DNA of 35,603 bases from an uncultured Atopobiaceae bacterium (GTDB lineage: Bacteria; Actinomycetota; Coriobacteriia; Coriobacteriales; Atopobiaceae): positions 1 to 35,603 of the forward strand of contig CALULC010000007.1 in assembly GCA_944321385.1 (NCBI GenBank). Reading direction: 5' to 3'. Of the stretch, positions 10,570 to 35,603 are shown in pieces (positions within the stretch are counted from its first letter, which is position 1; each line of letters starts with the position of its first letter). Made by a program: the position numbers and the translations under genes. Under the pieces are notes generated by a model, which saw only the letters and a list, made by a program, of their open reading frames with translations, made no database searches and was not told the DNA's origin.

Positions 10570-10611
10570 GGCTCGCCTCAGCCAAAACTCGGTTTTGTAC
10601 TGAGGCGAGCC
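10570..10611 (-). terminator. Nested hairpin terminator after the immunity gene
   Basis: GGCTCGCCTCAG (10570-10581) pairs perfectly with CTGAGGCGAGCC (10600-10611), and within the loop CAAAAC pairs with GTTTTG. On the reverse strand it is followed closely by ATTTTA. It probably ends transcription of the GTPase-ATPase-nuclease-immunity operon. Its CTGAGGCGAGCC arm resembles the CTGAGACGAGCC arms of the arrays around the GH20 gene. Confidence 0.7.
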
Positions 10612-10666
10612 ACGGTTCATAAAGCCTCCGCTGAGCAGGGTGGAACCTCGCTGTCTATGCACGCAA

Positions 10667-28950: not shown

Positions 28951-28963
28951 TACGCAACCACCT

Positions 28964-28995
28964 GTGGAAGAGGGCTCGCCCTTTTCCACTTTTTT
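28964..28995 (+). terminator. Rho-independent terminator of tRNA-Ser
   Basis: GTGGAAGAGGGC and GCCCTTTTCCAC form a 12-bp stem with one G:U pair and a 2-base spacer, followed by TTTTTT. It is the clearest terminator in the window. Confidence 0.92.
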
Positions 28996-29008
28996 GAACG
29001 GAGCGTCC

Positions 29009-29575
29009 GTGGACCCCATCGTTGTCATCCTGCTTGTTGGGCTGGCCATCATCGCCCTCGTCATGGTCTACACCCGCACCTACCTGAACATCATTGCCGA
29101 GGACAACCGCTGCGTCGACGCTTGGAAGGTCGTTGAGAAGGACATGGTGCGCCGGGGCGATCTGGTGCTGAGCCTCGAGGCCACGATGGCGGAGCGCGTC
29201 GGCCGCGGCTCGGACGCGATCGAGCCGATCTCCGCAGCGCGCGTTGCGGTGGAGGCGGCCGAGAAGCCCGAGGAGAAGGCCGCGGCCTCCGACGCCCTCA
29301 CGGAGGAGCTGCGCGCGATGTTTGCCATGGCGGAACGCTCCACGGTCCTCATGACCAATCCCGACCTGGTGCAGCTTCTGACGGACATCGCGGACGCCGA
29401 GAACTGCCTCGCCCGTTCGCGCGAGTCCTACGAGAAGTGCGTCCGCGGGTACAACAGCCGCGTCACCAGCTTTCCCGGCAACAAGATTTCCGGCTATCGG
29501 TACCGGCCGCGCAAGAGCCTGACCGCCAAGGCGCGGCACGAGCGGGAGCACGAGCTGCCCTGGGCGCGCTTCTAG
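29009..29575 (+). CDS. LemA family membrane protein
   Basis: A 188-residue protein. Residues about 4-24 (IVVILLVGLAIIALVMVYTR) form one N-terminal membrane helix. The helical domain has the LemA pattern: NRCVDAWKVVEKDMVRRGDLVLSLEATM, then AENCLARSRESYEKCVRGYNSRVTSFPGNKISGY near the C-terminus. LemA proteins are membrane-anchored helical bundles of unclear role. I chose GTG 29009, preceded by CGGAG, which places the start just before the helix; an upstream ATG at 28964 lies inside the tRNA terminator and is unlikely. The 41-bp repeat array follows the gene. Confidence 0.85.
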   Translation: MDPIVVILLVGLAIIALVMVYTRTYLNIIAEDNRCVDAWKVVEKDMVRRGDLVLSLEATMAERVGRGSDAIEPISAARVAVEAAEKPEEKAAASDALTEELRAMFAMAERSTVLMTNPDLVQLLTDIADAENCLARSRESYEKCVRGYNSRVTSFPGNKISGYRYRPRKSLTAKARHEREHELPWARF

Positions 29576-29924
29576 GCGACGGTGCGTGGGGGGGCTTGAC
29601 GAAAGTGGGCTCGTCTCAGCCCGAGGGGCTTCTCGCTTGACGAAAGTGGGCTCGTCTCAGCCTGAGACGGCAAAAATCCTGAGACAAGCCTCGTTTTGTC
29701 AAGTTTTCTCCCAGCGAGGCTGAGACAAGGCCCGTCTTGTCAAGCGAGAAGGACACGGGGTCGCAGCCGCTGCCTCCGCGGCGCGGAACAGCCCCACCGT
29801 TGGCCGAAGGGTTAAAGCCATCTGCCAGCTACCTGCGCAAACGCGGAATCAAAACTGAATATCCCCTGCTAGAGTGGTTTAGATTATGGGTTTCCCACCC
29901 GAAGCTCAAACGAGAGGGGAAAGC
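29576..29924. other. Intergenic region between lemA-like and GH20 genes
   Basis: About 350 bases. The first half is the repeat array 29594-29751. The second half carries the GH20 promoter region: an A+T-rich segment near 29855-29890 with TAGATT/GATTAT as -10 candidates. A 63-codon open frame (29737-29928) starts in the repeat, has no ribosome site and is probably not a gene. Confidence 0.55.
29594..29751. repeat. 41-bp repeat array, left of the GH20 gene (two direct and two inverted units)
   Basis: Units beginning GCTTGACGAAAGTGGGCTCG start at 29594 and 29635, exactly 41 bases apart. Inverted, diverged copies follow at 29679-29703 and 29719-29745 (CTGAGACAAG...TTGTCAAG). TTCTCGCTTGAC at the left and TTGTCAAGCGAGAA at the right mirror each other, so the whole array folds on itself. 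Confidence 0.85.
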
Positions 29925-32900
29925 ATGAGCAGGAAGCAACCAAAGCGAAGGCTCTTCGCGGCGCTTCTGGCCGGCGCGCTTGCGCTGGGCGGAGTGGCCG
30001 TGGCGGGCGCCGCGGCGACGGCTCAGGCAGAGCCTGAGCTGACCAACTTCGCACAAGGTGCCACGGTAACGGCATCCGGCACGGAGGAAGAGAACGGCAC
30101 GACCACCGCCTGGGCACCGGAGCGCGCTGTGGACGGCCTCGTTGGCATGATGGGCGGCGAGGACAAGCGCGCCGATAAGGACTGGCGCGATGACGGAAAC
30201 AACTTCCGGAGCCAGGAGTCCAGCCGCTGGTCCTCCAACAAGGAGGGCGACCGCTGGCTGACCGTCGACCTCAGCAAGGAGGTCGTCGTCGACAACGTGA
30301 CCATCTACTGGGGCAAGCAGTTCGGCCAGGGCTACAAGCTCGAGACCTCCCTGGACAACTCCAAGTGGACCGCCGTCACGGAGAACGGCTCCGAGACGCT
30401 CTCTGCCACTGCCTCCGAAGAGGACACCGTCCAGCTGAGCGACACCGTCGCGCGCTACGTGCGTGTCACCATCACGACCCCCAACTCCGAGTACTCCACC
30501 GGCATCTGGGAGTTTGAGGTCTGGGGCACCGATAAGGCCGCGGAGCCGGAGAACCTGGCGCGCCTCGAGACCACCAAAGTCACCGCCTCCGGCCAGGAGG
30601 TCGACGGCAAGTGGGGCCCCGAGCTCGCCGTTGACGGCAAGGTTGGCCTGACCACCGATGAGACCTGGCGCGAGAAGGACTGGCTCACGGTCCGCGAGAA
30701 CCACGTCAACGACGCCGCCAGCCGCTGGTCCGCCAACAACGCCGACGGCGTGTGGCTAGCGCTCGACCTGGGCGCCGAGGCCGACGTCTCCAGCGTGAAG
30801 ATCGTCTGGGGCAAGCAGTTTGGCAGCCCGTATCGCATCGAGACCTCCACGAACGGCACCGACTGGACCGCCGTCACGGAGAATCTGACTGGCGCCGACT
30901 CCGAGACTGTTGACATTCCGCTCAACGACGTCCAGACCCGCTACGTCCGCCTCTTCATCGAGCGCCGCAGCGCCACCTACGCGATGAGCGTGTGGGAGTT
31001 CGAGGTCTGGGGCACCTGGACGAACGGCGCCCCCGAGCCCGAGCCCGAGCCCGTTGACGAGGAGCTTCCCGCAGTCGTCCCCGAGCCCGTCTCCTACACC
31101 GCCGCCGAGGGCGACCCGTTCGTGCTGGAGCCCGACTCCGACATCGTGTACCAGGGCGAGGGCGCCCAGGCCGAGGCCGAGAAGCTTGCCGAGACGCTGC
31201 GCGTCTCCACGGGCTACGACCTTGACGTTGTGGCCGCGTCCGACGACAACGTCGCGGACATCACCCTCTCCATCAACACCGAGGCCGGCAACGGCACCGA
31301 GGAGTCCTACGAGCTCTCCGCCGGCGCCGAGGGCCTCACGCTCTCCTCGCCGTCCGCCCACGGGCTCTTCAACGGCGCCCAGACCATCTACCAGCTCTTC
31401 GGACCCTTCTCGGTGGCCGACTTCGTCACCAACGGCTCGTGGGACGTCCCGGCGCTCCAGATCTCCGACTACCCGCGCTACGAGTGGCGCGCCGTCATGC
31501 TCGATCCGGCCCGTTCGTTCCTCACGGTTGACGAGATCAAGCAGGCCATCGACGTGCTCTCCATGTACAAGCTCAACGTCCTGCACCTGCACCTGACCGA
31601 CGACCAGGGCTGGCGCGTCGAGATCACCAACGAGGGCCGCGTCGAGGACGATGACATCGACTACACGCGCCTCGCGGAGATTGCCGGCGACGCCGCGATG
31701 GGCACCACCCAGTACCAGCAGAACCCCGGCATCCGCGGCTACTACACGCAGGACGACCTGCGCGAGATCGTGGCCTACGCCAACGAGCACCACATCGAGG
31801 TCGTGCCCGAGGTCGACATGCCCGGACACTCCCAGGGCATCCTCCACGCCATCCCGCAGCTCAACTCCGCCGAGTCCTCGCACGACGGCACGGTTGACCC
31901 CAAGACCGGCGAGAAGATCGAGAACCCCGCCAAGTGGATCTGCGCCCCGGCCCAGACCACCGGCGACGTGGGCGGCTCCTATCTCGACTACAACAACGAG
32001 TACACCTGGATGTTCCTCGAGCACGTGGTGAAGCAGATCACCGACATCTGCGGCTCCGAGTACATCCACATCGGCGGCGACGAGACGCACCAGCTCAACA
32101 CCGACTATCCCGGCCGTGCGGTCCAGTTCCTCAACAAGGCCGGCGAGATGGTCCGCGAGATGGGCCTCACCCCCATCGGCTGGAACGAGTGGGCGTCGAG
32201 CGGCGTTGACCTTGAGTCCGGCGACACCATCCAGTGCTGGAACGGTCAGCCCTCCGCAGGCACCATCACCAGCTCCGACGCCCGTATCATCTGGTCCATG
32301 GCCCAGAACGCCTACTTCCCGCAGCGCCCCGGCACCAACGTGGCCGGCCCCAGCTGGGCGGGCGGCGCAGACGGCGTCTGCAACATCGACGACTTCTACA
32401 ACTACGACCCGTCCGCCCGCGCCGGCCTCTCCGACGAGTACGTGCGCGGCGTCGAGGGTGCCATGTGGAGCGAGCACGTCCGCGGCATCCAGGACTTCTT
32501 CTTCCCCTCGTTCCCGCGCGCCATGGCTCTGGCCGAGGTCGGCTGGACCCCGCAGAACAAGCGCACCGGCCAGGTTGCCGACCTGCGCGAGCGCCTGGCA
32601 GACACCGTCCCCGCCCTCACCATGAAGGGCGCCGACTTCTACGCCGAGGACGGCCTTGAGAACGAGCCTCTCGTCGCGGCCACCGACCTCGAGACCGCGC
32701 CGTCCGTGGGCGTTGCGCACACGATCGCGCACGGCTACATGCCGATGACCGACATCGCCGACGTCACCGCCACCATCGCGTGGGAGGACGGCACCACCCA
32801 GCAGCTCGGCGTGGTCCAGAACCGCCCGTACCAGGCCCCCACGGCGGCGAACAACAACAACCGCGCCCAGAACGGCCTCTGGGAGCTCACCCTCACCGAG

Positions 32901-35051
32901 CTTCCCGGGCAGGGCACCCACACCGGCACCGTGACGTTCACCGCGGGCGGGAAGACCGTCACGGACACCGTGACCGTCACCGTGACCGGCGGCGAGACCA
33001 TCTACGGCAACAACATCGCGCTCTCCGCCGCCTCCGGCGAGCAGGGCGAGAAGGTCACCGTCACGCTGAGCGACTTTGCTCCCAGCGCGTCCGTCTCGCT
33101 GAGCTTTGGCGACTCCACGCTCGGCTCCGTCACCGTTAACGAGTTCGGCGTGGGCACCTACGAGTTCACCGTCCCGGCCGTCAAGCCCGGCACCTACCAG
33201 GTGACGACCGATCCCGTCGGCTCCGGCGCGGAGTTTGAGGTCACCCCGGCCTTCTCGCCCGAGGTGACGCTGTACCCGGCCACCGCGGCCCCCGGCTTTG
33301 AGGTCTCCGTCACCGTGACCGGCCTCGAGCCCGAGAAGGACGCGACGCTGACATCCGAGTTTGGCGAGGTCGCGCTCACGGCTGACGCCGACGGCGCCGC
33401 CGAGGCAATGATCTCCGTCCCCGAGGGCGCCACGACCGGCTCCTACGAGGTGACCGTCGAGCAGGGCTGGTGGAGCGGCTCCGCAATGCTCACGATCGCG
33501 AGCGACGCGCTGGCGCACCCCATCGACCAGGAGCTCTACGAGATTGCGGGCTTCTCGTCCGAGGAGACGACCGGCGAGACCGCGCCGAGCGGACCCGCGA
33601 ACGCCGCCATCGACGGCGACCCCAGCACCTACTGGCACAGCGCTTGGCAGAGCGGCACGAGCAGCCTGCCCGGCTACATCACCATCGACCTGGGCGCCGA
33701 GTACGACGTTGACGGCGTCTCCTACCTGCCGCGCCAGTCCAACGCCAACGGCCTCATGAAGGACTACAAGGTCTTTGTGACGGCCGACAAGCCCAGCGGC
33801 GCGCCCACCGGCACCCCCGCCGCCGAGGGGACCTTCCCCAACGTGACCAGCGCCGGCAGCCGTGACGCCACCATCGTCAACTTTGACGAGCCCGTGACCG
33901 GCCGCTACGTGACGATCGTTGCCACGAGCACGCACGCCGGCAACAACTTTGTGGGCGCGGCCGAGCTCGTGGTGAGCGGCCTCGAGCACGCCGGCACCGA
34001 TCCCGAGCCCGAGCCCACGCCCGTCGACAAGACCGCCCTCCAGGACGCGCTTGACGCGGCCGAGGCCGTCGATCGCACGGACAAGACCGAGGATTCTCTC
34101 GCCGCGCTCGACAAGGCCGTTGCCGCGGGCAAGGTCGTGATGGCCAACGACGAGGCCACCGAGGCTGAGGTTGCCGAGGCCGCCCGGGCCATTCTGGACG
34201 CCATCGACGGCCTTGAGACCGTTGAGCCCGAGCCGGAGCCGGAGCCCACGCTCACCGGCATCGCGGTGAAGGCCCTCCCGGCCAAGACCAGCTACGTCGC
34301 GGGCGACGAGCTCCAGCCGTCCGGCCTCGAGCTCACCCTCACCTACTCCGACGACTCCACCAAGACGGTTGCCTACGTGGGCGCCGCGGACGAGTTTGCC
34401 TTCAGCCCCACGGCCTTCTCGGCCGCCGGGACCATTGAGGTCACCGTCACCTACGCGGGCATGACCACCACCTTCGAGGTCACGGTCTCCGAGCCCGAGC
34501 CCACGCCCGACCCCGTTGAGGAGGCGCGCAAGAACCTCCAGGAGGTCATCGAGAACAACAGCGGTCTTGCCGAGGACGACTACACGGCCGAGACCTGGGC
34601 AGTCTACGCCGAGGCGCTTGCCAACGCGCAGGCCGCGCTCGACGACGAGGGCGCCACTGCCGACGAGCTGAACGCGGCAGCCGACGAGCTGCTCGCCGCC
34701 GTCGCAGGCCTCAAGGACGCCGAGCCCGACCCCGGAACCGACCCGGATCCTGACGAGCCTGGCACCGACCCGGATCCTGACGAGCCTGGCACCGACCCGG
34801 ACGACAAGCCCGGAACCGACGAGCCTGGCGCCGACCCGGACGACCAGAAGCCGTCCGACGACCAGACGCCCGGTGACGATCAGAAGCCTGGCACCGACCA
34901 GAAGCCGTCCGGCCAGCAGAAGCCGGGCACCAGCGGCAGCGCGGGCGTGCCTGCCACGAGCGACCCGTCCTGCGGCGTTGCGCTTCTCGCCTCCATGGGA
35001 GCGGCCCTCTCCGGCGTGGGCGCCGTCCTCGTGACGCGTCGCCGCCAGTAG
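29925..35051 (+). CDS. Secreted multidomain GH20 beta-N-acetylhexosaminidase
   Basis: A 1708-residue protein. Signal peptide 1-35 (KRRLFAALLAGALALGG...ATAQA). Two F5/8C (CBM32-like) domains, about 38-202 and 209-365. GH20 N-terminal domain about 380-515 and catalytic barrel about 515-880, with VMLDPARSF, LHLHLTDDQGWR, VPEVDMPGHS and GGDETH (catalytic D719-E720, substrate-assisted mechanism). Three Ig-like modules about 926-1192, a third discoidin domain about 1203-1355, FIVAR-like bundles about 1366-1432 and 1531-1599 around another Ig-like module, an acidic Pro/Gly/Asp linker, then VPATSD (from 1675), a hydrophobic helix and RRRQ. It should release terminal GlcNAc/GalNAc (or lacto-N-biose) from mucin or milk-type glycans at the cell surface. 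The ATG at 29925 follows GAGGGGAAAGC. The sorting motif departs from LPXTG. Confidence 0.94.
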   Translation: MSRKQPKRRLFAALLAGALALGGVAVAGAAATAQAEPELTNFAQGATVTASGTEEENGTTTAWAPERAVDGLVGMMGGEDKRADKDWRDDGNNFRSQESSRWSSNKEGDRWLTVDLSKEVVVDNVTIYWGKQFGQGYKLETSLDNSKWTAVTENGSETLSATASEEDTVQLSDTVARYVRVTITTPNSEYSTGIWEFEVWGTDKAAEPENLARLETTKVTASGQEVDGKWGPELAVDGKVGLTTDETWREKDWLTVRENHVNDAASRWSANNADGVWLALDLGAEADVSSVKIVWGKQFGSPYRIETSTNGTDWTAVTENLTGADSETVDIPLNDVQTRYVRLFIERRSATYAMSVWEFEVWGTWTNGAPEPEPEPVDEELPAVVPEPVSYTAAEGDPFVLEPDSDIVYQGEGAQAEAEKLAETLRVSTGYDLDVVAASDDNVADITLSINTEAGNGTEESYELSAGAEGLTLSSPSAHGLFNGAQTIYQLFGPFSVADFVTNGSWDVPALQISDYPRYEWRAVMLDPARSFLTVDEIKQAIDVLSMYKLNVLHLHLTDDQGWRVEITNEGRVEDDDIDYTRLAEIAGDAAMGTTQYQQNPGIRGYYTQDDLREIVAYANEHHIEVVPEVDMPGHSQGILHAIPQLNSAESSHDGTVDPKTGEKIENPAKWICAPAQTTGDVGGSYLDYNNEYTWMFLEHVVKQITDICGSEYIHIGGDETHQLNTDYPGRAVQFLNKAGEMVREMGLTPIGWNEWASSGVDLESGDTIQCWNGQPSAGTITSSDARIIWSMAQNAYFPQRPGTNVAGPSWAGGADGVCNIDDFYNYDPSARAGLSDEYVRGVEGAMWSEHVRGIQDFFFPSFPRAMALAEVGWTPQNKRTGQVADLRERLADTVPALTMKGADFYAEDGLENEPLVAATDLETAPSVGVAHTIAHGYMPMTDIADVTATIAWEDGTTQQLGVVQNRPYQAPTAANNNNRAQNGLWELTLTELPGQGTHTGTVTFTAGGKTVTDTVTVTVTGGETIYGNNIALSAASGEQGEKVTVTLSDFAPSASVSLSFGDSTLGSVTVNEFGVGTYEFTVPAVKPGTYQVTTDPVGSGAEFEVTPAFSPEVTLYPATAAPGFEVSVTVTGLEPEKDATLTSEFGEVALTADADGAAEAMISVPEGATTGSYEVTVEQGWWSGSAMLTIASDALAHPIDQELYEIAGFSSEETTGETAPSGPANAAIDGDPSTYWHSAWQSGTSSLPGYITIDLGAEYDVDGVSYLPRQSNANGLMKDYKVFVTADKPSGAPTGTPAAEGTFPNVTSAGSRDATIVNFDEPVTGRYVTIVATSTHAGNNFVGAAELVVSGLEHAGTDPEPEPTPVDKTALQDALDAAEAVDRTDKTEDSLAALDKAVAAGKVVMANDEATEAEVAEAARAILDAIDGLETVEPEPEPEPTLTGIAVKALPAKTSYVAGDELQPSGLELTLTYSDDSTKTVAYVGAADEFAFSPTAFSAAGTIEVTVTYAGMTTTFEVTVSEPEPTPDPVEEARKNLQEVIENNSGLAEDDYTAETWAVYAEALANAQAALDDEGATADELNAAADELLAAVAGLKDAEPDPGTDPDPDEPGTDPDPDEPGTDPDDKPGTDEPGADPDDQKPSDDQTPGDDQKPGTDQKPSGQQKPGTSGSAGVPATSDPSCGVALLASMGAALSGVGAVLVTRRRQ
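34740..34793. repeat. 27-bp tandem repeat in the GH20 wall linker
   Basis: Two identical 27-bp units (starting GACCCGGATCCTGACGAG) encode the repeated DPDPDEPGT linker. In-frame units like this often vary in number between strains, changing the reach of a wall-anchored enzyme. Confidence 0.9.
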
Positions 35052-35074
35052 GCAGCTTCCAAGCCACACGGCCA

Positions 35075-35113
35075 GCGGGCTCGGACGCCAACCGCGTCCG
35101 GGCCCGCTTCTTG
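35075..35113 (+). terminator. Terminator of the GH20 gene
   Basis: GCGGGCTCGGACGC and GCGTCCGGGCCCGC form a 14-bp stem (one G:U) around CAACC, followed by TTCTTGTG. It closely matches the hairpin after the sulfite-reductase fusion gene. Confidence 0.82.
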
Positions 35114-35130
35114 TGTCGCACCGCAGCATC

Positions 35131-35312
35131 GCTTGACGAAACGGGGCTCATCTCAGCCCAAAGATCTTCTCGCTTGACGAAACGGGCCTCGTCTCAGCCC
35201 AAAGTTCTTCTCGCTTGACGAAACGGGCCTCGTCTCAGCCTGAAACGGCGTAAATCCTGAGACGAGCCTCGTTTCGCCAAGAAATCCCGTACCCAAGCTG
35301 AGACGAGCCCCG
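35131..35312. repeat. 41-bp repeat array, right of the GH20 gene (three direct and two inverted units)
   Basis: Units beginning GCTTGACGAAACGG start at 35131, 35172 and 35213, each 41 bases apart. Inverted copies follow at 35256-35281 (CTGAGACGAGCCTCGTTTCG) and 35297-35312. The unit is the same family as the array at 29594, so the GH20 gene is flanked on both sides. There are no spacers between units, so it is not a CRISPR array. Confidence 0.87.
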
Positions 35313-35406: not shown

Positions 35407-35433
35407 ATGAAACCTCGACCTCACAGTCGATGA
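35407..35433 (+). CDS. Possible 8-codon leader peptide MKPRPHSR
   Basis: ATG at 35407 follows AGGAGAAAGG and is read for eight codons, Met-Lys-Pro-Arg-Pro-His-Ser-Arg, then TGA at 35431. It lies 56 bases before the PRC-barrel (MgtE-type) transporter gene. Pro-rich leader peptides control magnesium transporters in enteric bacteria (MgtL) by ribosome stalling at low Mg2+. TCGAC and GTCGA within the ORF can pair. Whether this frame is translated is unproven. Confidence 0.4.
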   Translation: MKPRPHSR

Positions 35434-35489: not shown

Positions 35490-35603
35490 ATGATCTACCT
35501 GTCCCAACTCCTGGGCAACCCCGTTATTGACGCCGACGGCGAGAAGGTCGGCACGGTCTCTGACCTTGGCATCGCCACGGGCGAGGTCTTCCCCCGCATC
35601 ACG
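35490..35603 (+). CDS. PRC-barrel protein, probable MgtE-type magnesium transporter, N-terminus only
   Basis: The 38 residues visible (MIYLSQLLGNPVIDADGEKVGTVSDLGIATGEVFPRIT) match the start of a PRC-barrel domain, which in Actinomycetota often precedes MgtE-N and CBS domains of magnesium transporters. The ATG at 35490 follows AAGGAGCACGA. The gene runs off the window, so the transporter identity rests on the N-terminus alone; a stand-alone PRC-barrel protein is possible. Confidence 0.6.
   Translation, partial: MIYLSQLLGNPVIDADGEKVGTVSDLGIATGEVFPRIT

Follow-up and report, generated by a model that had tools for sequence, protein, structure and literature searches.

The two repeat arrays that lie on either side of a GH20 gene in the window (the whole stretch of 35,603 nucleotides that was analyzed) belong, with a probability that we put at roughly 0.55, to a REP/BIME-like repeat that is dispersed in, and specific to, a lineage of gut Olsenella, and whose arrays would offer phased sites, about four turns apart, to a putative DNA-binding protein. 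The window is contig 7 of an Olsenella MAG of 1.87 Mb that is 76% complete (G000). Both arrays are built of the 25-nt unit CTTGACGAAANNGGNCTCGTCTCAG, which flips its orientation once per array, and arrays of this unit are referred to as family A. Within the window, same-direction units are 41 bp apart and the orientation switches with an offset of 43 bp over an 18-bp centre. The features of the locus are listed below.

28961..29575, + strand: LemA-family gene, upstream of the left array (PF04011, E=8e-20)
29595..29619, + strand: left array, unit 1, 0 mismatches to CTTGACGAAANNGGNCTCGTCTCAG
29636..29660, + strand: left array, unit 2, 0 mismatches, 41 bp past unit 1
29661..29678, no strand: left array, 18-bp centre, orientation switch with 43-bp offset
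29679..29703, - strand: left array, unit 3, inverted, 3 mismatches
29720..29744, - strand: left array, unit 4, inverted, 3 mismatches, 41 bp past unit 3
29925..35051, + strand: GH20 surface protein between the arrays (PF00728, E=2.7e-72; F5/8 type C, FIVAR and Big_3 domains)
35074..35108, + strand: GH20 intrinsic terminator, 15-bp stem and T-rich tail
35132..35156, + strand: right array, unit 1, 1 mismatch
35173..35197, + strand: right array, unit 2, 0 mismatches
35214..35238, + strand: right array, unit 3, 0 mismatches
35239..35256, no strand: right array, 18-bp centre, orientation switch with 43-bp offset
35257..35281, - strand: right array, unit 4, inverted, 2 mismatches
35298..35307, - strand: right array, terminal half unit, CTGAGACGAG alone retained (6 mismatches over 25 nt, core intact)
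35490..35603, + strand: start of an MgtE-type transporter gene downstream of the right array, running off the contig (MgtE_N, CBS and PRC domains in the homologous G001 region)

A scan of the window with up to 3 mismatches recovered 8 unit matches, compared with a mean of 0.00 over 100 shuffles. The two arrays of 2+2 and 3+2 units described in the sequence-only reading are thereby confirmed, the fifth unit of the right array being a half unit. The exact 41-bp period given there holds in both window arrays, but genome-wide it is 41 or 42 bp. An Rfam search of the window returned a tRNA as its sole match. Also, a lone degenerate family-A unit with 5 mismatches, possibly an array remnant, occurs between ORFs on the minus strand at 10600-10624.

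That the arrays flank only the GH20 gene and its terminator is correct locally but misleading at the genome scale, since the unit occurs 79 times in the G000 assembly. These copies make up about 18 arrays with 3-7 units apiece, all of them intergenic and beside unrelated genes. Five of these lie between convergent genes, 12 between genes of the same direction and none between divergent genes, with one context undetermined; the lack of divergent pairs (0/17) is only suggestive of avoidance. The search for further arrays found many beside unrelated ordinary genes, with at least 49 family-A arrays in such positions in G000, G001 and G027. G001 carries 140 units, G027 67, G004 5 and G024 4, and the unit was not found in 26 of the 30 further genomes of the genus; the carriers nearest to G000 are metagenome-derived, uncultured Olsenella. 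A phage or plasmid origin was rejected, as viral contigs gave no match to the unit and plasmids gave none to the right array.

This distribution bears directly on the suggestion that the arrays serve as recombination sites, or cassette ends, in moving the GH20 gene, which is largely refuted and now appears highly improbable. Certain features of the locus would fit it: in G003, G005 and G025 the LemA gene is next to MgtE, with no GH20 between the two (another small gene fills this interval in G007, G023 and G024), and G004 has family-A arrays solely around its GH20 gene, with a LemA gene 95% identical to that of G000, as opposed to about 60% in the equally distant G025 and G005. MgtE identity to G000 is 91% in G004, as it is in G025 and G005, and on G004 contig 8 (L108, L197) part of the GH20 gene is 96.8% identical to G000 DNA, with flanks at about 88%. 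From these identities, LemA, GH20 and both arrays have probably recombined as a block between species, into G004. Since the transferred block takes in LemA, which lies beyond the arrays, these travelled along but were not its borders, and cassette ends were rejected on this ground. Moreover, about 16 further arrays of G000 flank ordinary genes, and a GH20 homologue sits beside LemA without family-A arrays in G002 and with an array of another family in G028. In substance, then, arrays occur elsewhere with no relation to gene gain or loss, and the GH20 gene is without a special role for the arrays. A short ORF, MKPRPHSR*, precedes the mgtE-type gene at 35407-35433; its letters are identical in several Olsenella species while the preceding sequence differs, and with its Pro codons it may be an MgtL-like leader peptide.

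The geometry of family A was analyzed in 49 non-redundant arrays from G000, G001 and G027. In all 49 the units are arranged head-to-head: the + units come first, the - units follow, and orientation switches just once. The 200 direct spacings are almost entirely of 41 bp (108) or 42 bp (91), with one of 39 bp, and the centre offset is 43 bp in 45 arrays, 33 bp in two, 42 bp in one and 44 bp in one. Both 33-bp centres are orthologous to each other and fall 10 bp short of 43, that is, about one helical turn. Half units make up 44 of the 98 outermost positions and 7 of the 200 inner ones, the CTCGTCTCAG side being what remains. Between arrays, spacers are 44% identical and units 83%, and still the spacers are fixed at a length of 16 or 17, which indicates that length is held independently of sequence, with indels excluded where substitutions are free. 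The spacing of 41/42 bp corresponds to about four turns of B-DNA, suggesting helical phase as the cause of its constancy. Tandem duplication copies spacing, so that recent descent could lie behind part of this constancy, though the spacers have diverged.

Among 252 distinct units, positions 9-12 are the most variable and positions 16-25 are near invariant, the latter partly as an effect of the scan pattern, which requires those positions. What is conserved in the arrays is the site, above all GGNCTCGTCTCAG, together with the 41- or 42-bp spacing, and both spacing and conservation agree with a phased array for putative protein binding. When units were permuted among arrays, the similarity of neighbours on the same side proved higher than in the permutations (22.5 versus 20.7 of 25 positions, a value of 22.5 being reached in 0 of 1000 permutations), whereas that of facing units did not (21.0 versus 21.2 of 25, p=0.84, with no covariation) and that of second facing pairs was lower (p=1.0). 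It follows that units are multiplied on each side by tandem duplication.

These comparisons also weigh on a role at the RNA level, in which transcribed arrays would form long hairpins behind genes and thereby stop transcription, protect 3' ends or sequester RNases. The structured RNA put forward in the earlier reading stands in so far as whole window arrays fold well beyond shuffles (z -6.4 and -7.6) and would fold strongly if transcribed, and a position behind genes, with no array between divergent ones, is consistent with it. The pairing itself, however, is not conserved: facing units were no more complementary than permuted ones, single family-A units gave no stronger folds than shuffled sequence (z -0.57 and -0.82), and the 5-bp GACGA/TCGTC stem of the unit is often broken on one side. 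Given the lack of covariation and the chance-level folding of single units, hairpins are not what is conserved, and hairpin conservation was rejected. Single units of other families gave folding z values of +1.16, +0.98, -0.13 and -0.84. Hairpins also need no fixed spacing of 41/42 bp. The idea of nested terminators finds no support, as the GH20 terminator already lies upstream of the right array and a scan for intrinsic terminators, which have a G+C-rich stem with a T run after it, found 5 terminator-like sites in the window, neither array among them. We thus regard function as RNA as improbable, and these observations favour, without proving, recognition as DNA.

In the preferred reading of phased protein-binding sites, each array would present 25-bp recognition sites at regular intervals, all oriented towards a common centre. 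A putative protein would bind the units, the constant spacing would set all sites on one face of the DNA, and the bound molecules may stack or loop over the space behind genes. BIMEs of E. coli bind IHF or gyrase, which offers a parallel for such an architectural role. Tandem duplication adds units on either side of the centre, and whole arrays come and go between species; a means of reaching new sites would be part of this turnover.

Array turnover is seen when orthologous sites are compared. For 14 G000 arrays the orthologous site could be tested in G001, and at 11 of them a family-A array is present there too, in most cases with another number of units. G004 and G025 lie at about the same distance from G000, judged by flank identity, and in each of them 13 sites were compared, all lacking a family-A array. 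Several of these sites hold repeats of other sequence, among them a CTTAAGGATTCGGGGTAGTTG repeat with a 42-bp period at the G000 C28 site and GGGTTAGAAATACCGGCTCGTCCCC-type units at the C93 site. At the C27 locus of G001, G000 keeps apparent remnants of the first and last half units, and an internal deletion in G000 is likely. At the C28 locus of G001 the array is wholly absent in G005, the difference spanning the adjoining terminator, with no target duplication readable. Neither locus qualifies as a clean empty site, the former because of the remnants in G000 and the latter because the difference includes the terminator.

Other families with a period of about 41 bp occur in G004, G025, G005, G007 and G028. 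Units of the form GCCGAGGAATC...GTGTACC, as read from the sequence, lie 3' of the LemA gene of G028, and 9 of the 14 arrays called in 200 kb of G025 have a 41-bp lag. A de novo scan of 14 genomes of the genus gave lags mainly of 41-42, those at 31, 62 and 82-84 forming minor groups; the same scan found no lags in block-shuffled sequence, and samples of four genomes from beyond the genus, about 390 kb in total, contained no 41-bp lag. Unrelated families of units of about 25 nt, with periods of 41-42 or 62 bp and direct followed by inverted units, coexist, with at least three in the richest genome. Their loci include L210, L212, L213, L214 and L215 in G025, L168, L165 and L197 in G004, L149 in G028, and L205 and L206 in G007.

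Short, high-copy extragenic units, mostly in regularly spaced clusters, are known as REP elements and BIMEs in Escherichia, Pseudomonas and Stenotrophomonas (PMC2817692, PMC3733652). Family-A units resemble them in being of high copy number (67-140 per main carrier genome), extragenic, regularly clustered, located behind genes and species-specific. Unlike REPs, which are imperfect palindromes of 20-40 nt, they do not fold individually beyond chance. The tag of a REP is a GTAG or CGTC tetranucleotide at one end (PMC3733652); CGTC is present in the family-A unit, internally at positions 18-21 and not as an unpaired end tag. BIMEs consist of regularly spaced REPs of alternating orientation (PMC2817692); spacing in family A is equally regular, but every array has one switch only. 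In its abundance and genomic placement the array class thus approaches REP/BIMEs, and it may work as a BIME does, but we do not class it as one, since it lacks three defining features: the palindromic unit, the alternating orientation and a linked RAYT.

As in REPINs, an inverted pair of units surrounds a short variable centre, a single +/- pair here measuring 25+18+25 nt (PMC3116915), but the sides of family A are extended by tandem units at 41/42 bp. Ordered clusters in SBW25 repeat the whole REPIN with its flanks, with about 71 or 110 bp between REPs (PMC3116915). The arrays share with CRISPR and TIGR arrays direct repeats and variable spacers of constant length, but CRISPR and TIGR arrays keep a uniform orientation beside Cas or Tas genes, whereas these arrays invert mid-way and are dispersed over the genome. 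TIGR-Tas was rejected after a search of G000 found no Nop (Tas-type) domain.

Both G000 and G001 do encode a RAYT-type Y1 transposase, which is framed by a repeat of its own, TGACAAAGGGGTCGTAGCCGACTGTCA, present in 53 and 59 copies, respectively, and all but missing from the remaining genomes of the genus. The loci (L069 on G000 contig 116 and L100 on G001 contig 28) are laid out as ++[gene]-- or +++[gene]--. As in family A, units of this repeat are direct on one side and inverted on the other, and a weak similarity, TGAC.AA...GGG.TCGT, is visible by eye; unlike family A, the repeat has self-complementary ends, a spacing of about 30-43 bp and a central RAYT gene. The two layouts resemble each other, one having a gene at its centre; this offers a lead on kinship but does not prove it.

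This pair lends some weight to the view that the arrays are purely selfish miniature elements of the REP/REPIN kind, which a transposase (a RAYT since lost, or another enzyme) has copied and which were amplified in tandem without serving the cell, with the spacing reflecting the needs of the mobilising complex. The patchy, species-specific occurrence with bursts of copy number, the presence or absence of whole arrays between close species and the many unrelated array families within one genus all speak for it. Against it, about 39 Y1 loci were examined and not one has the family-A unit, or another named array family, on its flanks, in which respect family A differs from RAYT-mobilised REPs and REPINs, the carriers being incomplete MAGs in which such a gene could be missed. 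Further, G005 has a few 41-bp arrays yet no Y1 match, and no target-site duplication has been demonstrated. The RAYT as a partner of family A was rejected, the Y1_Tnp of G000 having a different repeat of its own, and on balance purely selfish elements seem a rather unlikely explanation.

REP/BIME-like repeats are best known from Proteobacteria. A survey located tagged REPs in 8 phyla, its text making no mention of Actinobacteria (PMC3733652), and literature text searches on repeats of Olsenella or Coriobacteria found no paper, so that this repeat class is apparently undescribed so far. Its spacer length is far better conserved than its sequence, and several unrelated families share the geometry. 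As a tentative extension, which we hold to be possible rather than probable, unit sequence may be replaced wholesale while species retain the geometry (25-bp sites spaced by about four turns and inverted once) and in some cases the location between genes, in which case the arrays would form a new class of helically phased, head-to-head arrays with a fast-evolving putative DNA-binding or mobilising factor. Arrays of this kind allow a direct test of what, if anything, selection maintains in interspersed bacterial arrays, be it DNA architecture or RNA.

Intergenic enrichment of CTTCTCGC is modest, at 1.3-4.8 fold in array-bearing samples and 0.6 in G026, and carries no weight in the argument. Copies of the motif CTTCTCGCC / GGCGAGAAG turn up close to gene ends and within array spacers in several Olsenella genomes, CTTCTCG or GTTCTCG preceding about one third of the units; its enrichment relative to coding DNA is likewise modest. 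At locus L121 (3300-3800, G001 contig 28), a family-A array lies between TGACAAAGGGGTCAGACCCCTCTGTCA-type hairpins, and its G027 orthologue occurs without them.
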